A stretch of DNA of 44,672 nucleotides from Moorena sp. SS36440bin_2. Its GTDB lineage: Bacteria > Cyanobacteriota > Cyanobacteriia > Cyanobacteriales > Coleofasciculaceae. The stretch is taken from contig WTKN01000060.1 in the NCBI GenBank assembly GCA_011524395.1, forward strand, positions 1 through 44,672. The letters run 5' to 3'. The translations under genes were made by a program, and so were the position numbers. The notes beneath the pieces were generated by a model that saw nothing but the letters and a program-made list of their open reading frames with translations, had not been told where the DNA came from and made no database searches. Of this stretch, positions 22,389 to 35,905 are shown one piece after another (the stretch's first letter is position 1; every line of letters begins with the position of its first letter).

Positions 22389-22838
22389 CTAGCTTAATTT
22401 TACCAAAACTAAATTATCTTCTTCCTTGGTTTCATAGCTTGTCAAGGGTTTGTCTGCAGGTCCTTTTGTTACTTTGCCATCTAAATCAAACTTAGAACCG
22501 TGGCAAGGACAGTTAAATATCTTGTCCTCTTGCTTCCAATCCACGCTACAACCTTGGTGAGGACACCTAGGGTTCACGGCAACAAGACTATTGTTGCTCA
22601 GATTACGCACGACTAGAATATCTGCTATCTTGTCGGTAATTTTGCCTTTTTCCTCTAACTCCTGCACTGTGCCAACGGCTTGGAATCCATCTTCTCGCAC
22701 CGATTTATCAATCTTAGGACTTGTATTTTCTGTTGCTTTTGGGGGAGTTGGATCAGTACTACAGGCAGCTAATGCTACTGGTAGATAAGTAGCCAATGCA
22801 CCAACACCAAACCAGCCCATAAATTCACGACGATCCAT
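22389..22838 (-). CDS. Rieske [2Fe-2S] lipoprotein, bc-complex type
   Basis: A 149-aa Rieske protein. The N-terminus has a twin-arginine pattern (DRREFMGWFG) and a lipobox LAAC (Cys about 26), so it is probably exported folded and lipid-anchored. The cluster ligands are C92-x-H94 (CPHQGC) and C110-x2-H113 (CPCHGS), with the extra Cys pair C97/C112 that forms the disulfide in bc1/b6f Rieske proteins. It is shorter than PetC and has a Pro/Thr/Lys linker in place of the membrane helix region. It lies at the downstream end of the cytochrome-maturation/multiheme cluster, so it may serve that chain rather than cytochrome b6f. Confidence 0.87.
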   Translation of the reverse strand: MDRREFMGWFGVGALATYLPVALAACSTDPTPPKATENTSPKIDKSVREDGFQAVGTVQELEEKGKITDKIADILVVRNLSNNSLVAVNPRCPHQGCSVDWKQEDKIFNCPCHGSKFDLDGKVTKGPADKPLTSYETKEEDNLVLVKLS

Positions 22839-23247: not shown

Positions 23248-24972
23248 TTAATTATCTTTAGCCATAACCGGTTGGTTTGGACTCAATTGTTTCACTATAT
23301 TTTCACTAGATTTAGAGAACAACCAACGGTTATGTCTGGTAGCGGCAGCTGCTACAAATAATAAGTCTAAACCAACTAGGGTACCGACAATTAATTCTGA
23401 GCCACCAGTGCTAAAACCATAACTGTGTAAACCAGTACCGAGAACAAAGTTAACGCCATACCAAGCCATCAACACAGCATTAAAACAAATTACACTAATG
23501 ACTGCCATCCCAAAGTCTGCTAACCATCCTACCAGACGACCATGTAAGGGGACTATGTAACACATTAGGGCAATCAACGCCCAGGTTTCTTTGGGGTCCC
23601 AACCCCAGAAGCGACCCCAGGAGAAGTGAGCCCAAATCCCACCGAGAATAATGCCAGTAGTGAGCAGTAAAACACCAATTTGTAGTACTCGATAGTTGAA
23701 TTTTGATAGATTGGAAATTCGTTGAAAGGATTGGGGAGCAACTAGATAATGTCCTAGAATAATATGTCCTAATCCCATTGCTAATGCAAAACTAGCATAG
23801 CTGAGGGTAATGGTGGGAACGTGGATACTTAGCCAAAAGTTGTCTCGTAGTACTGGTACAAGGGGGGCAATACTTGGATCTAGGACGGCTGGAAGACTGT
23901 CTGCTAGAAGTAGACAAAGGATTGATAAAGGAGCAGCGGCTAACAGATAGTATTTTGCTCGGTAGATTAGTTCAAATACTAGGGCGATGGCGGCTATCCC
24001 AAATCCAACCCACACTACGGATTCATACATATTGGTGACTGGGGGACGTCCGGCAATTTCCATGCGGGTGATAAAGCCGTAGCCTTGGATGAAAAGACCT
24101 GTGAGGAAAATTCCTACTGCACCTGAGTAGAGGTCTAATTGCTTGAAGGATAATCCTAATAACAGGACTAGTAATGCGATCGCATAAATTTTCCAGGCTT
24201 TACTAAAGGGGCGAAAACTAGAGAAGTTAACTTCCCGTTGCAGCACGGAATCCTTGGGGTAAATGTCAGGGCTAAGAGCCGCTAACTCCTGATGTAGTGT
24301 TTCCGCGACTTGCCCAACTTCAACAGTAGTCAGTAGGGGATCTAAACGATAGGCTTGTTTGAGTGTTTGATAACTTTGCTGTAGAGGGGTAATTTGTTCG
24401 TTGGTGTAATACTGTTGCGATTGAGGTATGCTTACCCAAGTGCCTTTACTCTCGCTGGGATGGGGAACTAGGGGTAGGGTATCAGTACCTACGGTGCGTA
24501 ACATTAATGCCAGTCTGTCTTCTATGGTCAGGGCTTCTCGTTCGTCTCTAGTCAGCTCAATGTTGTCCGCTTCTTTTTGATTGGCTTCCAGAACGATGGC
24601 ACCTAGGTTGGAACTGACTAATTCTGCGAAGGAGAAGTATTTTCGTTCTAGGTCAAGACCAATTTTTTCTTTGAGGGGGCGGTAGGTCAGCAGAATGAAA
24701 GGTTCTTGGTTCCAGTCTCGGTTATTAAACCATAGGGATAGGTAGCTTTGGAGATAGTTGAGGCTTTGATTGTTTTCTAGGCGGTAGTTAGTTGAACCGT
24801 GGATTTTGGCTACGGTTTCTCGGGCTACGGTGTCTAAGGGTTTTTTGCGCCCATCCAGTTGGACGGCTAGGGTTTGTAAGGGGTCTAGGGGTGATGGTTG
24901 GAGTTGGGTTGGAGGTATGATTAGGATTAGGATTCCGAGACAGAGTCCGATTAGGAGTTGGAGTGGTTTCAT
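23248..24972 (-). CDS. System II cytochrome c maturation protein CcsA/ResC-like, N-terminally extended
   Basis: A 574-aa membrane protein of the heme-handling family. The C-terminal half (about 280-560) contains the tryptophan-rich WWD region: WAHFSWGRFWGWDPKETWAL, followed by conserved His-bearing helices (CYIVPLHGRL) and the segment GVNFVLGTGLHSYGF. This half corresponds to an ordinary CcsA. The N-terminal extension (about 30-260) includes LAVQLDGRKKPLDTVARE, a pattern I associate with CcsA proteins found beside multiheme cytochromes in other phyla. With the ResB-like partner upstream it would export heme and attach it to apocytochromes. The housekeeping cyanobacterial CcsA is probably elsewhere. 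Confidence 0.85.
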   Translation of the reverse strand: MKPLQLLIGLCLGILILIIPPTQLQPSPLDPLQTLAVQLDGRKKPLDTVARETVAKIHGSTNYRLENNQSLNYLQSYLSLWFNNRDWNQEPFILLTYRPLKEKIGLDLERKYFSFAELVSSNLGAIVLEANQKEADNIELTRDEREALTIEDRLALMLRTVGTDTLPLVPHPSESKGTWVSIPQSQQYYTNEQITPLQQSYQTLKQAYRLDPLLTTVEVGQVAETLHQELAALSPDIYPKDSVLQREVNFSSFRPFSKAWKIYAIALLVLLLGLSFKQLDLYSGAVGIFLTGLFIQGYGFITRMEIAGRPPVTNMYESVVWVGFGIAAIALVFELIYRAKYYLLAAAPLSILCLLLADSLPAVLDPSIAPLVPVLRDNFWLSIHVPTITLSYASFALAMGLGHIILGHYLVAPQSFQRISNLSKFNYRVLQIGVLLLTTGIILGGIWAHFSWGRFWGWDPKETWALIALMCYIVPLHGRLVGWLADFGMAVISVICFNAVLMAWYGVNFVLGTGLHSYGFSTGGSELIVGTLVGLDLLFVAAAATRHNRWLFSKSSENIVKQLSPNQPVMAKDN

Positions 24973-25033: not shown

Positions 25034-26809
25034 CTAGGGGGAATGATAGTACAAGGGAACTCCGGACTCCTCTGGCTGGCGGCGCAGTTTTTTAGCTATC
25101 CCTCGACCATAGAACATGATGGTGATCCCACCGATTACTAGACCGGAGCCTGTCCAGGTTAAACCAGTTACCCAGGCTGGTTCTCGCTTGATTTGTAGGG
25201 TTGATTGTTTTAAGTCACCGGGATTCCAGGAAGCTTGGGCTATTTTCCAGCCTTGATACCAGGTGGGATGGTTCATCCAAACGTTGCGGTGGGAAATGAC
25301 ATGGTGATCCCGGTCTTCGAGCCGGATTTTGCTAGTCCACATAGCAACGGAATCACTGCCTTCATTGCGTTCTACGATGAAGTCTTCTAATGCGATCGCA
25401 AATGGCAGTTGCAAGAGTTTGGGACTAAAGGCAGCAAAGATTTCTCCTGTTGGTTCGTTAATCGTAGTCGGTTCGCCCCAGGGTAACCAGGTTTCGGTTC
25501 CGGTTTCGGTGCTGACTAATAAAGCTGGTACTCCCTTAACCGTTGGGTCAAATACAGGTATGACCTCACGATTAATTTTGCCATGGGGAATATACTCGTC
25601 TAGGGTAATTTGGAAGTCTGCCCAACCGGGACTTACAGCTTCTCCAACCTCTAAACTCCCAGATTTAAATCCTTTCGAGGAATGGGCAGCATAGAATAGC
25701 TGACCTGATTGAGTAACGATCACCCGGAAATAATCCTGTGATTGCTGGGGTTGAATGTTATAGCTAATCTCAATTCCTTCTAGGGGTTGTCCTGATACCA
25801 CTGAACGAATTGGGGGAAAGTTTTCCTTTCCAAACACAAACCAGCGTTCAAGCCCTTCTGGTGTGGATACCTCTAACTGTACTGCGGGATTTCTCAGTTG
25901 TTGGGAGGCCGTGGTCGGTTGGTTGTTGGCGTCTAGTCGGAAATCCGGCCAAAAATCAACGACTTTGAGTGAGGAGTCTGGGGCTTGGGATGACAGAGCT
26001 TCTTTTATATCGATAATCTCTGTATTTATATTGTCCCTTTCTTTTGACGTTACCTCGATGCTTCCCCAAGGACTCAGGTTTTGTTCTTCAGGAGGGGATA
26101 GCAGAGATTTTCCTTTTCCTGTCGCTACCGTATCTACCTGAATAATTTCTAATTCAGCTGGCCCAATCCCTACTTTGCTATAGGCTACTGGGGCTACAGC
26201 TAAATAGCGCTCTAGGGTTTGCCCCATGCGATCGCTTTTCAAGCGTAATCGCACTGCTGGATTATCTACTGCTAAATTATCTGCCGTTGCCCCTTCCGTA
26301 AAACTGACTGTTTTGATGGTGTTGTCGCTGTAGCCTACCAAAGACAATTTACCAATTTGCTTGGGCATGACTGAACCATCTGGCTTGATCAATACATCAG
26401 CCTGCTGCAACTCTGATGATGGTGTCATCACTTCCAACAATTCCCCTTCAACCCGAATCTGATTGCTCGAAGCCGTATCGGTGCGCAAAGGTAACATGCC
26501 CTCTACACCTAAGTGGATTACAGCGGCTGAACCAGCGATAATTATGATGATACCAAGATGGGTCAGAGCAAAGCCGAGTTTACGCGCACCTCGCCAGGGA
26601 TAGCGATACAGAGCTGAGACCGCTAAGTTGAGCGCTAGTAGGAACATTAAGGCTCCAAACCAGGGACTTTTGTAAATCTCCTGTTGCACGGTAGTTGACC
26701 CGACCTGAGATTCGTAAAACGTCGCCCCAATTAAGATAGCGACAATCATACTAAGTAAAGGGACAGCTAGTTTAATCGAGCCAATAAATTTCAAGGTATG
26801 CTCAAGCAT
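25034..26809 (-). CDS. ResB/CcsB-like cytochrome c maturation protein
   Basis: A protein of 591 aa from ATG 26809 (MLEHTLKFIGSIKLAVPLLS); a TTG at 26842 would add 11 weakly plausible residues. Features of ResB/Ccs1: N-terminal membrane helices (about 10-100) including LVGATFYES-like IGATFYESQVGSTTVQQ and FALTHLGIIIIIAG with the conserved His, a large periplasmic/lumenal domain (about 110-545) and a C-terminal helix near 560-580. ResB and CcsA form the system II heme lyase, which needs the apocytochrome Cys pair reduced, fitting the thioredoxin-like gene upstream. The CcsA-like gene follows 61 bp downstream, so the two are likely one operon. Confidence 0.87.
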   Translation of the reverse strand: MLEHTLKFIGSIKLAVPLLSMIVAILIGATFYESQVGSTTVQQEIYKSPWFGALMFLLALNLAVSALYRYPWRGARKLGFALTHLGIIIIIAGSAAVIHLGVEGMLPLRTDTASSNQIRVEGELLEVMTPSSELQQADVLIKPDGSVMPKQIGKLSLVGYSDNTIKTVSFTEGATADNLAVDNPAVRLRLKSDRMGQTLERYLAVAPVAYSKVGIGPAELEIIQVDTVATGKGKSLLSPPEEQNLSPWGSIEVTSKERDNINTEIIDIKEALSSQAPDSSLKVVDFWPDFRLDANNQPTTASQQLRNPAVQLEVSTPEGLERWFVFGKENFPPIRSVVSGQPLEGIEISYNIQPQQSQDYFRVIVTQSGQLFYAAHSSKGFKSGSLEVGEAVSPGWADFQITLDEYIPHGKINREVIPVFDPTVKGVPALLVSTETGTETWLPWGEPTTINEPTGEIFAAFSPKLLQLPFAIALEDFIVERNEGSDSVAMWTSKIRLEDRDHHVISHRNVWMNHPTWYQGWKIAQASWNPGDLKQSTLQIKREPAWVTGLTWTGSGLVIGGITIMFYGRGIAKKLRRQPEESGVPLYYHSP

Positions 26810-26856
26810 ATATAGCAGTTCTAAAATAGGTGAGGTACACAATAAGTTTGGTATTT

Positions 26857-27866: not shown

Positions 27867-28355
27867 TCAGGATAATAGCTCTTGCAGCACTTTAGTGATA
27901 ATTGTTTCAGGGATTTTGCCAACTAGGATTTCTGTCTCTTGTTGATTACTGTCTAGAAATGTGAATTGAGGCACACCAGTCACTCGGTATTTTTCAATCG
28001 GTTTAGCCCACTGGGGATCATCTATATTTAGCATCACCCAATTGACGGTTTCTCCATACTGTTGGTGTACTTTGTTTAGGATGGGAGCCATGGATTGACA
28101 AGTGGTACACCAGTCAGCGTAAAATTCTACTAGAGTGGGCTTATTATTGCTCAAAGCAACCTCATAAGGGACGGCTTGCTTTGCCATTGTCTTGATTAGA
28201 GCTAACCCAGCCACCCTTGAACTACTAAGGCTAGATACATCAGAACGAGTTAGGAAAAATGTTCCAGCGGCGAATACAACAGTGATTATTCCTACAACCA
28301 TGCTGAGTTTTGCCCTGATTTTTCCTTTCTCACTATTCATTATAGTATTTCTCAA
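27867..28355 (-). CDS. Membrane-anchored thioredoxin-like protein in the cytochrome cluster
   Basis: A 162-aa protein with one N-terminal membrane helix (about 17-35) and a thioredoxin domain with active site WCTTC (82-86), the NIDDPQWAKPIEKYRV segment and cis-Pro in VTGVPQF. It is clearly related to the TxlA-like protein at 3930-4538 (shared VALSN-KPTL-EFYA-WCT-C pattern) but shorter and without the C-terminal tail. ATG 28340 (MNSEKGK) is an alternative start. System II cytochrome c maturation needs a CcdA-fed thioredoxin-like reductant (ResA/HCF164) to reduce CxxCH sites; its location between cytochromes and Ccs genes suggests this role. Confidence 0.85.
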   Translation of the reverse strand: MRNTIMNSEKGKIRAKLSMVVGIITVVFAAGTFFLTRSDVSSLSSSRVAGLALIKTMAKQAVPYEVALSNNKPTLVEFYADWCTTCQSMAPILNKVHQQYGETVNWVMLNIDDPQWAKPIEKYRVTGVPQFTFLDSNQQETEILVGKIPETIITKVLQELLS

Positions 28356-28595: not shown

Positions 28596-29207
28596 TTACT
28601 GATAGTAATAGGCCAGAAATATGTGAAATCCTAGCATAACAAAGAATACACTGACTAGAAAGATATGGGTGGATAGCCAGATAGAACGTAGATTACGAAT
28701 TAGGGGGCCTTTAGATATACCCGGTAGCATCGTGCCAATGCCATCCTTTGCTGGCACCCAACCAAAATATTTTCTAGGAGATTCCAGTACCCCAGTTTCC
28801 GCCACCACACCTACTAGAGCCGATAGAGTTACACCGAAAAATACCCACAGAAATATAGAATTAAAATTCTTACCCGTCGCCCCAATGGTATGAATTAATG
28901 TTGTTCCTAACAGGGCGACTCCCAAAAATATATGTAAACTGCGCCACAGCAGTATGGAACCAGGAATAGTTAGCTTAATCATCCAGCCACGACTACGCTT
29001 TCTAGCCGTTAGTACCATCTCAAACAAGACAAAGGCTAGGGATAGATAGCCGGTAATTTGCTTATAAAGTTCCCCTTGTAAAAGCTGATACCATCTAAAA
29101 TAATTGTCCCGCAGCATCGGTAGATAAAGGGGACTGAGGGCAAAGGGAGTCAGAATTACCACACAGATGAAGGTGAGGATGATTAAGGTAGAAAATTTGG
29201 GCTTCAT
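28596..29207 (-). CDS. Diheme membrane b-type cytochrome
   Basis: A 203-aa membrane protein with about five helices (roughly 8-28, 48-68, 82-108, 118-137 and 177-200). Two helices each carry a His pair with 13 residues between: H92/H106 (SLHIFLG ... LIHTIG) and H181/H195 (STHIFLV ... GFHIFLA). This HX13H pairing is how cytochrome b and ferric-reductase-type proteins hold two stacked hemes across a membrane. The loop WLV-like region KYFGWVPAKDGIGTMLPGI lies between. I do not recognise a named family. Its location beside c-type cytochromes suggests transmembrane electron transfer, probably with quinone. Confidence 0.75.
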   Translation of the reverse strand: MKPKFSTLIILTFICVVILTPFALSPLYLPMLRDNYFRWYQLLQGELYKQITGYLSLAFVLFEMVLTARKRSRGWMIKLTIPGSILLWRSLHIFLGVALLGTTLIHTIGATGKNFNSIFLWVFFGVTLSALVGVVAETGVLESPRKYFGWVPAKDGIGTMLPGISKGPLIRNLRSIWLSTHIFLVSVFFVMLGFHIFLAYYYQ

Positions 29208-29477: not shown

Positions 29478-30122
29478 TTAGGTGCCTTTTAGAGGCAGAT
29501 TAATGATGATGCCACCCATTACTTCGCCCATCTCAAAGACTTTGTCGGGATAGCGCTCTTTGTGGACAGGATGGGTGTTGTGGCAAGAGATACAGGCTTC
29601 AGCCACAGCTTTATCAGGGTAGACGGCAGAATAATAGGTTGTACCAGCAATTTCTTGATAGTCCATGTAAGGCTCACCAGTTTCAACCACTTCTGCCATC
29701 GCTTTCTTTTCAAATTCAGATTTTGGCGCTTGGTTATCGTTGATGTTCCAAGGGGAAATTAAGCCGTAAGTAAACTGTCCGTTCTCAGAAGCAATCTCTG
29801 CTCCTAGACGGAACATCTGAGCTGGTAGGGGAATACCACCAGTTTGTTGCCAACCTTCAGTGGCTTCCGCATCAACTACTCCTTTTGGCTTGTCTTTGCC
29901 TTCTAATGTCTTCAAGCGGTTAATGACATGCTTGGTATAAGCAGTGCGGTCTGCTAAGAGCACGGTATGGATATAATCCACAACTATTTCTGGAGCAACA
30001 CCTGAAGCTTGCTGAGTGGAACCGCCACCACAAGCGACAACAGTGACGCAAATCGCTAAACCTAAGACAATTAAGCCTACAGCTTTGGTTTTGATGCGAT
30101 GTAGCAATGTCTTGATTGCCAT
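29478..30122 (-). CDS. Tll0287-like (DUF3365) monoheme c lipoprotein
   Basis: A 214-aa exported lipoprotein: signal helix about 13-30, lipobox VVAC with Cys 31. One c-type heme site CISCH is at 177-181, followed by NTHPVHKERYP. The middle part (PLPAQMFRLGAEIASENG ... YGLISPWNINDNQAP) and FEMGEVMGGIIINLPL are the DUF3365 (Tll0287-like heme-binding) fold, which resembles a PAS domain; such domains are proposed as redox sensors or small electron carriers. Here it is a free lipoprotein rather than part of a histidine kinase. It follows the hexaheme gene by about 170 bp, with a tandem array between. Confidence 0.88.
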   Translation of the reverse strand: MAIKTLLHRIKTKAVGLIVLGLAICVTVVACGGGSTQQASGVAPEIVVDYIHTVLLADRTAYTKHVINRLKTLEGKDKPKGVVDAEATEGWQQTGGIPLPAQMFRLGAEIASENGQFTYGLISPWNINDNQAPKSEFEKKAMAEVVETGEPYMDYQEIAGTTYYSAVYPDKAVAEACISCHNTHPVHKERYPDKVFEMGEVMGGIIINLPLKGT

Positions 30123-30201
30123 GATTTCGTGTCTCCTCTCGTTGTATTTAATTGGTATGACGTGGCTATAAAATGGCTATGACTAGCGCTAATTTAATGA
30201 T

Positions 30202-30295
30202 TAGCGTTAGCTAGTAGCGTTAGCTAGTAGCGTTAATTAGTAGCTTTTACTACTAGTAGCGTTAATTAGTAGCGTTAATTAGTAGCTTTTACTAC
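30202..30295. repeat. 13-bp tandem repeat array
   Basis: Units: TAGCGTTAGCTAG (30202, 30215), TAGCGTTAATTAG (30228, 30257, 30270) and TAGCTTTTACTAC (30241, 30283), with an extra TAG at 30254-30256. The last base overlaps the stop codon of the hexaheme gene. Confidence 0.95.
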
Positions 30296-31131
30296 TATTC
30301 AGCATTACTCGACCGTTTCTTCTCAAATTCACGAACTAGATCAAAGGTTTCTAGCTTCAGGGTAGGAGGTTCAGCAAAGTTTTCCTCCACTAGCTCATCG
30401 TCGAAGATGCTGTTATAGCTATACTCGACGCTGTGGCAGTTCATACAAACTTCCTTAACCATGCGATCGCGTGGTTTAAGAGTAAAGGTATTGTTGTGAT
30501 TAACGACAATTGTGTTTTCTGTGTTTTCCAGCTGCTGACGAGGTAAATGACAGGTAGCACAGGTCACCGATTCACCATTGGGTCTGGGTAAGGTACCTTG
30601 GTCAGCAAATAGTTGGGCATGCTTTGAGTTTTGATAGTTAAGGGAGTGGTTGTCATTATGACAGGTCAAGCAGGAATCTACAGAGGCTTGCCAGGTATCT
30701 ACAGAATGGACATTATGACAGGTGTTGCAGTTCATTTGCTTGTCTATCGCTGACTCTTTCATCGGCAAATGAGCCATTGCTGGTGTCAAGGGAGATAGTC
30801 CTTCTGAGATCCGAATGCCATGCTTACCATACAAAAACGTCTCAACTGCTACCTCATGGCAACTTTGACAACTTTCCTGAGTTGGTTTAACCACTAATTC
30901 TTTAGTTTCAGAGTCTTGGTGACAGCTAGAGCAGTTGACGTCTGCTAAGGCATGAGCACTGCCTTCCCACAACTGATTAATTTCAACTAATTCCCCTTGG
31001 GAAAGGGATGCACCGTCTTTGGGCACACCCCCATTAGTAGCTACATCAATAGCAGTGTTTGCGTTACCTCGGATACCCCTGACCAATACCAAACTAATTA
31101 GGACGAGTACAATGGCAATCAGTTTTTTCAT
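30295..31131 (-). CDS. Hexaheme c-type cytochrome
   Basis: A 278-aa exported cytochrome with N-terminal signal/anchor helix (about 4-19) and six CxxCH sites: CSSCH 67-71, CQSCH 88-92, CNTCH 135-139, CLTCH 154-158, CATCH 191-195 and CMNCH 229-233. Many additional His residues (for example GKHGIR, NVHSV, VVNHNN) could be distal ligands. The pattern W-E-G-S-x-H-A before the first site and CNTCHNVH recall the hydroxylamine-oxidoreductase/octaheme superfamily, but the match is partial and no CxxCK site is present. Its ATG overlaps the pentaheme gene stop by 4 bp (ATGA), so the two are translationally coupled. Confidence 0.88.
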   Translation of the reverse strand: MKKLIAIVLVLISLVLVRGIRGNANTAIDVATNGGVPKDGASLSQGELVEINQLWEGSAHALADVNCSSCHQDSETKELVVKPTQESCQSCHEVAVETFLYGKHGIRISEGLSPLTPAMAHLPMKESAIDKQMNCNTCHNVHSVDTWQASVDSCLTCHNDNHSLNYQNSKHAQLFADQGTLPRPNGESVTCATCHLPRQQLENTENTIVVNHNNTFTLKPRDRMVKEVCMNCHSVEYSYNSIFDDELVEENFAEPPTLKLETFDLVREFEKKRSSNAE

Positions 31132-31772
31132 GACTCGCTCCCCAGGAATTCTTCACCTAAATCGGGAGTAGGCGGTTCTTCTAATTCCGCAGTAACTGTC
31201 CGCTCCAACAGTACAGGTTCTGGCAACATCGGCAACTGATCAAGATTCTGACGCAGGAATCCTGTGGAGATGGAGCGGTGGTCGTGGAAATTATGACAGC
31301 CTGCGGTCCAGCAACCATCCGGAGTAAATCCTGTATGACTGGCTAAGTCACCGGTGATGATGCCTTCATGGCAAGCCATACATAGGTCTGGCTTTAGGTG
31401 AACTCCTCGCCCAAACATATGGACGTGTTCGTTATGGCAAGCCGTACAGGTCAGTACATCTATCTTGGTTAAAAGTTCAGCCCAACGGGGGTCACGGAAC
31501 TTTTTAGTTCCGTGAGTATCTGCTGCCATTTCCGCTTCGTGACAGCGCATACAGGTTTCGTTGGTGACCGGTTTAAACCCTTCATGACAGGAGTTACAGG
31601 ACACCTCAAACAAAACATGTCCCTCCGAGGTAGTGCCAGGAAGGAACACACTGCGATGATCTAAAGCGAAGGCAGCGCCTAACCACGTTAGTAGGATCAC
31701 CATCACACCGATGATGACTACCTTGGATTGGAGAATAGTGGGCTTAAAAAACTTACCGAGATTGCTTGCCAT
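31128..31772 (-). CDS. Membrane-anchored pentaheme c-type cytochrome (NapC/NrfH-like)
   Basis: A 214-aa protein with an N-terminal membrane helix (about 17-36) and heme sites CNSCH 59-63, CMRCH 74-78, CTACH 109-113 and CMACH 131-135, plus an uncommon C154-x4-C159-H160 site (CWTAGCH). One-helix multiheme proteins of the NapC/NrfH type oxidise membrane quinol and feed a soluble reductase; here the partner would be the hexaheme protein, whose start overlaps this stop by 4 bp. The C-terminal 40 residues are acidic and Pro-rich. The CX4CH site could hold a fifth heme, as in some cytochromes c3, but this is unproven. Confidence 0.86.
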   Translation of the reverse strand: MASNLGKFFKPTILQSKVVIIGVMVILLTWLGAAFALDHRSVFLPGTTSEGHVLFEVSCNSCHEGFKPVTNETCMRCHEAEMAADTHGTKKFRDPRWAELLTKIDVLTCTACHNEHVHMFGRGVHLKPDLCMACHEGIITGDLASHTGFTPDGCWTAGCHNFHDHRSISTGFLRQNLDQLPMLPEPVLLERTVTAELEEPPTPDLGEEFLGSES

Positions 31773-31797: not shown

Positions 31798-32361
31798 TTA
31801 CAACAACAGGGCCAAGAGAAGGCTGACGATTCCACCAGCTCCAAACACTCCACCGACTAAGGGCCAGTTAATGTTTGCTTCCGGCACCTCATACTGTTGG
31901 GGGCTGGGTTTTGTGGCCTCTGGTTTTGGGGCATCTAACTCTACTTCTTCAGAGGAATAATCCGCACCATCCAACATGATGGTGGTAATGGCTCCGTAGG
32001 CATCTACCCAGGCTTGCTTTACTTCTGGTGTCCAATCCGCGCCCAAGTATTGCTCAAAGGTTTTTAGGAGGCTATTGCCCACTAATGGATAATGTTCTGG
32101 CAGCGCTCCATACTTAACATGTCTCGCTCCTAGCCCTTTGAGGGCTGCACCGAGGGTATCTGGTTTGCGTAAATTTTCTACTACCAGTACTAAGGAAGCC
32201 AGCAGCTTTTTCTGTTGGGCACCCATGTCTGTGGTATCGAACAGAGGCTGGGCGGCTGGATAATCGGTGAATAGATTTTCGTAAAAGCTGGCTACAAATT
32301 CTGTAGCGCTAGGCTTAATCTGATCAAAGCTTTGTTCTAATAGTTCCACTTGTAAAGACAT
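31798..32361 (-). CDS. Single-domain globin with C-terminal membrane anchor
   Basis: A 187-aa protein. Residues 1-135 are a bacterial 3/3 globin like Vitreoscilla hemoglobin: Tyr B10 in SFYENLF (about Y27), Gln E7 near residue 49, proximal His H81 in GARHVKYG, then PEHYPLVGNSLLKTF and QAWVDAYGAI. After an acidic Pro-rich linker (about 135-160) comes one membrane helix (about 166-187) ending at the C-terminus. Tyr B10/Gln E7 fits tight O2 binding and NO dioxygenation. A tail-anchored globin is unusual. The gene is first in the run, 25 bp before the pentaheme gene, so they probably share a transcript and the anchor keeps the globin near the cytochromes. Confidence 0.88.
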   Translation of the reverse strand: MSLQVELLEQSFDQIKPSATEFVASFYENLFTDYPAAQPLFDTTDMGAQQKKLLASLVLVVENLRKPDTLGAALKGLGARHVKYGALPEHYPLVGNSLLKTFEQYLGADWTPEVKQAWVDAYGAITTIMLDGADYSSEEVELDAPKPEATKPSPQQYEVPEANINWPLVGGVFGAGGIVSLLLALLL

Positions 32362-32902
32362 TGTTCTATATCACTCCATGGGATTTATATAGGATTTACA
32401 TGGGATTTACATAGGATTTAACTTTTACCTTGGCACCGAGCCCCCGGTAATAACTTCAGCCTACTTTTGGGTTGGAGTTATTGAGGTTGAAAGCTTGACA
32501 TCCCCTAAAGGTAGATGCCCAGTGGAGATAACCTCCCACCAGGCAGGATTGTAAAGATGTCTAACTGTGTAAGGTTCCCACTGACTAACACTGACTAAGT
32601 CGATGTGATTAGATCAATAGTCCATATCGAGATATAACAATAGGTTTCACAATTGGGAGACATCGTAGCTTTTGTTACAAAGACTTTATAAAAATGAATA
32701 TTATGCATTAAAATTTTGCATTGAATACATTTTTGATTTGATAATTAGGCTTTTGTTGGAGAACGCTTAAATTAGAGTCCGATATTCGATTCGGGAAATC
32801 AGCTGTTCGTCGGATCAGTCTCCTCTCCTATCGAGAATAGTAGTCAAATGCACTTAATTTGGTGCAGTTAATTTTTTATTGCCGTGAGGCAACGATTAAA
32901 CA
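32362..32902. other. Divergent promoter region, cytochrome cluster / HEAT protein
   Basis: 541 bp between divergent genes. Near the globin start are about four direct copies of GGATTTACATA-like units (32378-32420). The remainder contains no gene. The promoter of the whole globin-cytochrome run should lie here; I did not find a perfect NtcA (GTA-N8-TAC) or FNR-type site by eye. Confidence 0.45.
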
Positions 32903-35283: not shown

Positions 35284-35673
35284 CTACTTCAACCAACGGA
35301 ACCCCCTTTCACCCTTCAGCTTGCCATCAAAGCTTGCTGTTTCTATACAACCAGCTTGACGAGATGTTGCCCCAATCAAATAGTCAGAAAAGTCTGCTTT
35401 ACCTTTTTTGTATCGCTGTAGAGCTTGATAGACGGTTGAGCGATTTTCAAATTTGAAGGCGGCACTATGTAGCATGGCTTCTAGGGTGTTGATGATTTCG
35501 TCTTTACGAAAACGGTAGTTTGCACCTCTGAGCACCCAAACCAGTTCGCACAAAACGATGTTTGTAACAAAGCAGGGTTGGTTCTTTTGAATCAGATCAG
35601 AGGCTTGTTGCCATTGATGCTCATCGTCGCGGGTGAGATACCGAACAAGAATATTGGTGTCAATCCCAATCAT
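35284..35673 (-). CDS. PIN domain toxin (VapC-like)
   Basis: A 129-aa PIN-domain ribonuclease from ATG 35673 (MIGIDTNILVRYL). The acidic active-site residues are present: D5, E43 (LCELVW), D94/D97 (ADFSDYLI) and D116 (SFDGKL). VapC toxins cleave tRNA or rRNA when not bound by their antitoxin. The frame stays open upstream to 35769, but that part overlaps the antitoxin in another frame and is not PIN-like. The start lies 14 bp inside the end of the antitoxin gene, the typical coupled arrangement. Confidence 0.9.
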   Translation of the reverse strand: MIGIDTNILVRYLTRDDEHQWQQASDLIQKNQPCFVTNIVLCELVWVLRGANYRFRKDEIINTLEAMLHSAAFKFENRSTVYQALQRYKKGKADFSDYLIGATSRQAGCIETASFDGKLKGERGFRWLK

Positions 35674-35905
35674 TGGCTCCCTCAGAGATGGCGCTTTCCA
35701 TGTCTTCGAGGCTGGCTGGTGGTTTACCTGGTCGATGCAGGATCCCTGATAAGGTTTCCACTGGAACATTGAGAGGAAACATTTTTACTTGACCGTCTTC
35801 GTCAATAACGAACTCGACTCTACTACCGCTGACAAGGTTAAGATGCTCCCGAATTTCTTCGGGGAGAGTGATTTGCCCGGTATCGGTGACTGTTGTGCTA
35901 AACAT
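35660..35905 (-). CDS. AbrB/SpoVT-type antitoxin
   Basis: An 81-aa protein with a swapped-hairpin AbrB DNA-binding domain at the N-terminus (TVTDTGQITLPEEIREHL, then GSRVEFVIDEDGQVKM) and an acidic C-terminal tail (SLEDMESAISEGANDWD) that should wrap the toxin. It is the upstream gene of the toxin-antitoxin pair and probably represses its own promoter just upstream of 35905. The 14-bp overlap with the PIN gene supports coupled translation. Confidence 0.9.
   Translation of the reverse strand: MFSTTVTDTGQITLPEEIREHLNLVSGSRVEFVIDEDGQVKMFPLNVPVETLSGILHRPGKPPASLEDMESAISEGANDWD

Follow-up and report, generated by a model that had tools for sequence, protein, structure and literature searches.

The globin gene and its operon

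On the minus strand of the window, by which we mean the whole stretch of 44,672 nucleotides from Moorena sp. SS36440bin_2 that was analysed, a globin gene is followed by a series of cytochrome and haem-lyase genes (Table 1). Moorena is a filamentous marine cyanobacterium, and the globin is 98% identical to a protein of Moorena sp. SIO3H5. The first-pass annotation of this DNA had placed the globin at the right coordinates and had left its strand unstated; a plus-strand reading of the same stretch was rejected because stops run throughout it, and the minus strand is open. Absent from that annotation were the cytochrome b with its four invariant histidines, the tandem arrays of up to five globin domains in related loci and the NtcA-type promoter. 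No RNA family was detected within the window at gathering scores, and neither the globin nor the cytochrome b has a match in PHROGs. A PIN-domain/AbrB-type toxin-antitoxin pair, judged by eye from the translations, lies at 35284-35905.

Table 1. Features of the globin-cytochrome locus, with positions in the window and the basis of each assignment.
Feature	Position	Strand	Basis and occurrence
Tail-anchored single-domain globin, 187 aa (anchor predicted)	31798..32361	-	profile and structure matches, hydropathy
Globin core, residues ~5-131 (Y27, F41, Q49, H81, Y91)	31969..32349	-	alignments and model
Acidic, Pro-rich linker, residues 134-164	31870..31962	-	read from the sequence
C-terminal hydrophobic (predicted transmembrane) helix, residues 168-186	31804..31860	-	hydropathy
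NtcA-type box GTAACAAAAGCTAC, 317 nt before the globin start	32665..32678	-	significant across loci, not alone
Putative -10 box TATTGT, 22 nt after the NtcA-type box	32637..32642	-	motif spacing
Membrane-anchored pentaheme cytochrome c (4 CxxCH + 1 CX4CH)	31128..31772	-	5 motifs in 43/43
Hexaheme cytochrome c (6 CxxCH, 6 further invariant His)	30295..31131	-	6 motifs in 43/43
Tll0287-like (PF11845) haem-Cache protein, lipobox-like Cys31	29478..30122	-	CxxCH and Cys31 in 41/41
Membrane cytochrome b, ~5 helices, invariant His 92, 106, 181, 195	28596..29207	-	39/39
Membrane-anchored thioredoxin-like protein	27867..28355	-	profile; in 28/42 operon loci
Second Ccs1/ResB haem-lyase subunit (TTG start unsure)	25034..26842	-	in 25/42 loci
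Second CcsA/ResC haem-lyase subunit	23248..24972	-	in 26/42 loci
Rieske protein, RR (twin-arginine) and lipobox-like start, loosely linked	22389..22838	-	in 17/42 loci

Six short peptide patterns of the globin, by which diverged globins can be missed, were scanned against a collection of 84,980 species genomes and yielded 76 loci. In 42 of the 76 cyanobacterial loci the globin gene stands directly before the gene of a pentaheme cytochrome c and on the same strand (here and in the other operon counts L001, a repeat of the window locus, is left out). The adjacency to a multiheme chain that the first-pass annotation had noticed in one genome thus holds in 42 of 42 operon loci, an order that is partly the result of selection, since the scan was seeded with the globin. 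A search seeded with the hexaheme gene found the globin adjacent to the hexaheme cluster in both of two other genomes. The conserved order is globin, pentaheme cytochrome, hexaheme cytochrome, Tll0287-like protein and four-histidine cytochrome b. Genes for the pentaheme, hexaheme and Tll0287-like proteins, whole or cut, are present in all 42 operon loci and the cytochrome b gene in 38, the remaining four (L014, L028, L030, L039) stopping at contig ends. The globin and pentaheme genes are separated by -4 to 42 nt in 34 of the 42 loci and by 159-275 nt in eight. The family motif counts in Table 1 (43, 41 and 39 sequences, the window included) cover ORFs that do not run off their contigs.

Further genes accompany this core less regularly. 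The thioredoxin-like protein probably serves the reduction of apocytochromes. Because the window genome has separate copies of both haem-lyase subunits elsewhere, the second copies at the locus suggest a dedicated maturation line for the operon cytochromes. The Rieske protein is a possible redox partner of the complex, and a cluster of pentapeptide-like proteins touches 26 operon loci. One locus (L021:11862-12392) carries a second, divergent and tail-less globin within the operon, between the cytochrome b and thioredoxin genes.

The cytochrome-globin system is rare, because the hexaheme protein occurs in just three of 386 sampled cyanobacterial genomes, that of the window among them. Many of the hosts are, as we presume from their names, marine mat, reef or epiphytic forms. 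The operon is also found in the named strains Xenococcus PCC 7305 and Leptolyngbya PCC 7375, and the system is therefore open to experimental test.

The globin core

The globin matches PF00042 (E=2.3e-19) over residues 25-128, and a match to the truncated haemoglobin profile PF01152 was absent at E up to 0.1. Its best matches in the PDB include Hell's Gate globin I (3s1i, E=5.2e-24) and, lower, Vitreoscilla haemoglobin (1vhb, E=4.8e-17); in the profile search the two best matches, 3wfw (E=2.8e-31) and 3s1i (E=5.2e-31), are level. Tyr27, Phe41, Gln49 and His81, which we take to be B10, CD1, E7 and F8, align to identical residues in 3s1i; neither they nor Tyr91 vary among the 83 globin domains that the 42 operon loci encode, in an alignment of domains spanning more than 110 residues that retains every operon domain. 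The core is predicted with high confidence and superposes on 3s1i with an rmsd of 1.5 Å over 125 columns. By its PF00042 profile, Phe CD1, His F8 and 3/3 fold the protein belongs to the M/F flavohaemoglobin lineage, in agreement with the earlier description of a Vitreoscilla-type globin with Tyr B10, Gln E7 and a proximal His. Profile searches found neither an FAD/NAD(P)H reductase domain nor the signalling output domain of a globin-coupled sensor in the ORF; no flavoprotein domain is attached.

One feature may set the operon globins apart from the flavohaemoglobins, in which a proximal Tyr G5 is paired with Glu H23. Of this pair, the tyrosine has its counterpart in the invariant Tyr91. The place of the glutamate, extrapolated two residues past the end of the alignment, is Ala133, an alanine in all 83 domains, though position 131, two residues closer to the N-terminus, is acidic in 73 of them. 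The proximal Glu may thus not have been retained.

The hydrophobic tail and its conservation

The most hydrophobic 19-residue window of the tail comprises residues 168-186 (Kyte-Doolittle 2.29; Wimley-White octanol -4.5 kcal/mol), one residue before the C-terminus at 187, and the hydropathy maximum of residues 1-140 is only 0.78. The succession of an acidic linker and one helix that ends the protein, which had been read from the letters, is thereby borne out by hydropathy, and with a single hydrophobic helix in the last ~30 residues and no N-terminal signal the protein has the layout of a tail-anchored protein. In the AlphaFold model the linker has a pLDDT below 50 from residue 141 onward, and a short helix at 177-186 has a pLDDT mostly below 50. 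Because an N-terminal signal or hydrophobic stretch is missing, the globin should sit on the cytoplasmic side.

A tail is present in 37 of the 42 operon globins (window hydropathy 2.22-2.88). These loci have 217 other ORFs that are 120 aa or longer, and not one of them reaches 2.2 in its C-terminal window, so that the tail is not a product of chance. Between the last globin domain and the helix, L006 has 109 residues, and the other 36 tailed globins have 25-58. Within the genus Moorena, the one-domain form over residues 1-187 is kept with its tail in four of four genomes, the window genome among them. Tailed globins and cytochrome genes go together in 37 loci; in the other five (L046, L048, L051, L053, L077) a tail-less globin retains the cytochrome genes, and tethering is accordingly not strictly needed. 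The two loci reached from the hexaheme gene are divided in the same manner, with a tail in L080 and none in L081.

The anchor may carry more than one globin unit. Two domains are present in 24 of 42 operon globins, one in 11, three in five, four in one and five in one. It is, to our knowledge, unusual in bacteria for a single anchor to have gained tandem globin units repeatedly. In a tree of 124 domains, in which the columns are few and many forks unresolved, domains of the same protein often group together (L007, L009, L018, L029 and four of the five in L027), which points to repeated duplication or homogenisation of the domains. Both globin domains of L018:7560-8549 are identical in their aligned amino acids, as would be produced by a very recent duplication, by homogenisation or by an assembly artefact.

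Haem ligation and a possible path across the membrane

Beyond the haem-binding motifs, six other invariant histidines are available for the five haems of the pentaheme cytochrome and six for the six haems of the hexaheme cytochrome, so all of these haems may be bis-His ligated and none need be catalytic. Since the multiheme proteins have enough histidines for such ligation throughout, the globin, and perhaps the Tll0287-like protein too, are the likely open-site haems of the system. The latter is a haem-Cache protein by its PF11845 match and CxxCH motif; according to PMC12889525, signal-fused members of the Tll0287 family resemble NO sensors and stand-alone members are ascribed likely redox roles.

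Two histidines 14 residues apart in each of two helices are the pattern of a two-haem cytochrome b. The four invariant histidines of the operon cytochrome b form two pairs with exactly this spacing in predicted helices (85-107 and 166-201), and by this pattern the protein appears to be a two-haem membrane cytochrome b. The mean net charge of its loops is +5.9 and +3.6 on the presumed cytoplasmic side and -0.9 and +0.2 on the outer side. With this orientation the His92/His181 pair would lie near the cytoplasm and the His106/His195 pair near the outside, as in a two-step haem relay across the membrane. For the fold itself no certain relative was found: with the structural model (mean pLDDT 80.6) Foldseek gives nothing at or below an E of 0.001, and the similarities to b561 (4o6y; Z 7.3, rmsd 4.0, 137 aligned) and to the cytochrome b of formate dehydrogenase (1kqf_C; Z 7.4, rmsd 5.2, 134 aligned) are too low for helical bundles and rank among those to many unrelated bundles. 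The window protein scores 17 bits against DUF4405 (cut-off 26.7), and among the family members weak matches occur to DUF4405 in 29 of 38 (best 7e-06) and to Ni_hydr_CYTB in 28 of 38 (best 0.0013).

This arrangement bears on the earlier suggestion that the neighbouring cytochromes reduce the ferric globin in place of the usual flavoprotein. The conserved tail and the lack of a flavin domain agree with it, but the multiheme chain cannot reduce the globin directly, because the globin should lie in the cytoplasm and the c-type haems on the other side of the membrane; haem c is attached covalently outside the cytoplasm, as PMC12889525 also states. The cytochrome b could do so, and is the only evident electron route to a cytoplasmic globin in the operon.

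A putative nitrogen-control promoter

NtcA reports nitrogen shortage, and in NtcA-activated promoters a -10 box lies about 22 nt after the NtcA site. The motif GTAN8TAC occurs 15 times in the window, so that a single site means little without a comparison across species. Across loci the motif is present within 600 nt upstream of the globin in 31 of 42 promoters (the window and 41 loci; L045, whose globin is open at its 5' end, is left out, and L028 is represented by 320 nt of upstream sequence only). Control motifs with spacers of 3-7 and 9-15 are found in 1-4 of 42 promoters over 600 nt and in 0-4 over 400 nt. Within the last 400 nt, 26 occurrences were observed, compared with a mean of 2.1 and a maximum of 7 in 200 dinucleotide shuffles. 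Upstream of other genes of the same loci, operon genes included, the motif stands before 64 of 452. Weighting by similarity leaves the contrast intact (19.2 of 25 clusters versus 1.0-2.2 for the control spacers), and a TAN3T box follows the NtcA-type box at 21-24 nt in 19 of the 42 promoters versus 1-8 at shifted distances. The promoters therefore appear to have the pattern of NtcA activation, a GTAN8TAC box with a -10 box some 22 nt on. Boxes of FNR, CRP and HcpR type were found upstream in 1, 0 and 0 of 41 promoters, respectively.

Outside the 42 operon loci, six further loci are truncated; the box is present in five of them (L017, L022, L031, L064, L072) and not in L036, and L022 and L064 show none of the other operon genes. 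The promoter of Xenococcus PCC 7305 (L007) has the box, and that of Leptolyngbya PCC 7375 (L042) is among the 11 of 42 without it. Between the hexaheme and Tll0287-like genes of the window, at ~30200-30295, short repeats (CTACTAATTAACG-like) contain two GTAN8TAC matches. In PMC3898017 the NtcA consensus is GTAN8TAC with its centre at -41.5, and NtcA of Anabaena binds 2,424 regions of which few are ascribed to nitrogen genes; as so many regions are unrelated to nitrogen, an NtcA-type box is no proof of a nitrogen role.

What the globin may do

In our judgement the globin very likely belongs, as a tail-anchored component, to a cytochrome module under nitrogen control, and the module probably keeps it working against NO or O2 under nitrogen shortage. 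As to the chemistry, we favour a globin that acts as the cytoplasmic catalytic subunit of a nitrogen-controlled membrane haem relay, with NO dioxygenation as the most likely reaction, and would put the probability of this reading at roughly 0.4. It is preferred because a one-electron haem route could lead through the cytochrome b and because the promoter is of a nitrogen-control type. Globins that dioxygenate NO end each turnover in the ferric state and need one electron, and haems b and c carry one electron. NO dioxygenation is described as general to haemoglobins provided that a system for re-reduction exists (PMC2323109).

According to this proposal, the tail would tether between one and five globin units flexibly to the cytoplasmic side of the membrane, in the manner of cytochrome b5, and a linker of some tens of residues would let the unit or units visit the cytochrome b. 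Electrons would come either from quinol or from the outer side (the periplasm or the thylakoid lumen), where the 11 haems of c type and that of the Tll0287-like protein would lie, and would cross the membrane through the two b-haems to re-reduce the ferric globin singly, so that the haem relay would replace the flavin reductase of flavohaemoglobins. The reaction, NO + O2 + e- to nitrate, would protect cells grown on nitrate or nitrite and return the nitrogen as nitrate. The sequences themselves show the gene order, the hydrophobic tail, the haem motifs, the histidine pattern and the promoter motif; topology, haem number of the cytochrome b, formation of a complex, direction of the electrons and the reaction are all features that we infer. 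The more specific picture of a flavin-free, cytochrome-driven NO dioxygenase, in which a relay of multihaem, haem-Cache and cytochrome b proteins under nitrogen control ends in a polyglobin that has one to five units and is held by a tail anchor, we put forward tentatively and with some doubt; if true, it would be a new kind of respiratory-type complex.

Among the observations that count against this proposal are the absence of the tail in five of the 42 operon globins and in L081 and, less clearly in view of the nearby acidic residue, an alanine at the presumed place of Glu H23 in every domain. The distribution of other genes was searched in 40 operon genomes each for NO synthase, flavohaemoglobin and nifH (those of L045 and L003 left out). 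NO synthase has no match in the window genome and a match in one of the 40, and was rejected as the source of NO on these grounds; given its near-absence, the source would be nitrite chemistry or neighbouring organisms. A full flavohaemoglobin is over cut-off in none of the 40 operon genomes and in one of 386 cyanobacteria, a base rate so low that the lack of flavohaemoglobin was rejected as a sign of replacement.

Alternatively, the relay-reduced globin might consume or carry O2 at the membrane, as a sink or a means of delivery for the benefit of nitrogenase, of mats at night or of a terminal oxidase. We regard this as somewhat unlikely but as a serious competitor, nearly as easy to hold as NO dioxygenation. 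Of the 40 operon genomes, 20 have nifH over the cut-off, compared with 58 of 386 cyanobacteria, an enrichment that fits the oxygen role as well, in a comparison sample unmatched for lineage or genome size; the other two hexaheme-positive genomes, G170 and G213, both have nifH. Control of the NtcA type would suit nitrogen-starved, N2-fixing cells, and tandem globins would increase the capacity for O2. Membrane-associated cyanoglobin GlbN of Nostoc was reportedly once proposed to feed a terminal oxidase or to handle O2, and by the title of a cited work it is a peripheral membrane protein. On the other hand, nifH is below cut-off in half of the operon genomes, those of Moorena (window genome, L004, L005) included, some of them MAGs and maybe incomplete; nitrogenase as a partner by rule was therefore rejected. 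Nor is an oxidase gene found among the clusters common to at least four loci, and the binding of O2 alone requires little re-reduction.

A third reading, in which the ferrous globin acts on the cytoplasmic side as a reductase of hydroxylamine or nitrite and thereby backs nitrite reductase during growth on nitrate, appears improbable. Cyanobacterial haemoglobin is said to reduce both compounds, and the NtcA-type promoter as well as a constant one-electron supply would suit a ferrous reductase. However, these reactions are anoxic, the cases in question belong to the truncated family PF01152, which the window globin does not match, and no specific feature of the sequence speaks for them.

We consider quite improbable a role of the globin in sensing or regulation, in which it would adjust a cytochrome complex with another job (e.g. 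extracellular or periplasmic electron transfer) and need no electrons of its own. Up to five globin copies, whose haem residues are invariant across all 83 domains, resemble a catalyst or a store more than a sensor, and the operon globins scanned (window, L027, L029) have no signalling domain. In favour of a sensor, the Tll0287-like subunit has a sensor fold, 3wfw (E=2.8e-31, level with 3s1i at 5.2e-31) comes from the globin part of HGbRL, a putative sensor, and some relatives of the globin that lie outside the operon are joined to other membrane modules (an MscS channel or pentapeptide proteins).

Known systems and related globins

The globin domain itself belongs to a familiar class; new to us are the tail, the tandem anchoring and the candidate reductase made of haem, and no description of these three was found in the open-access literature, which was the literature covered. 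What deserves attention is that a globin is genetically tied in 42 loci, and with an anchor in 37, to a candidate reductase built of haem instead of flavin. Hell's Gate globin I and Vitreoscilla haemoglobin share with it the 3/3 fold, Tyr B10 and His F8, and Hell's Gate globin I the Gln E7 too; both are soluble, single-domain proteins with no tail and no known cytochrome operon. Flavohaemoglobin (NF009805 / PRK13289) has a homologous globin domain and, as an NO dioxygenase with a dedicated reductase, provides the analogy proposed here, but its profile matches the window globin only at 17-135 of 399, and an FAD/NAD domain is missing. Cytochrome b5 likewise combines a cytosolic haem domain, a flexible linker and a C-terminal tail anchor with one-electron exchange with membrane partners; it differs in being a eukaryotic electron carrier of unrelated fold with a closed haem.

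Among cyanobacteria, the globin of SyNOS from Synechococcus PCC 7335 was superposed on 3S1I and has a reductase partner, and a recycling of NO to nitrate was proposed, according to PMC6104048. That globin is fused to an NO synthase, an enzyme not found in 39 of the 40 operon genomes. For cyanobacterial GlbN, PMC3820574 gives a link to the membrane in Nostoc and NO resistance in Synechococcus. In contrast to the operon globins, these GlbN proteins belong to the truncated 2/2 family, and that of Nostoc is peripheral and not tail-anchored. We know of no cytochrome operon associated with them.

Globins of this clade seem to have become attached to membranes by several routes, because fusions with an MscS channel and with helices and pentapeptide repeats exist outside the operon. 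In Nodosilinea (L066:6678-8408) an MscS channel is fused to a C-terminal globin of the same clade and is possibly gated by O2 or NO. Six further loci (L055, L056, L057, L058, L060, L073) encode one or two globin domains, two hydrophobic helices and pentapeptide repeats outside the cytochrome operon; this architecture was confirmed in Pfam for L056 and L057, and no NtcA-type box lies within 600 nt in any of these loci. Seven others outside the operon (L024, L061, L065, L067, L068, L071, L074) have a globin, a single hydrophobic helix and a short polar tail. The three-domain globin of L011:3320-4723 has neither tail nor operon and carries Asn (domain 1) and Tyr (domain 3) at the place of the proximal His, and these two domains may have lost haem. 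The window genome itself contains a cupin domain fused to a globin (L002), and a globin match of the same level is present in four of four genomes of the genus.
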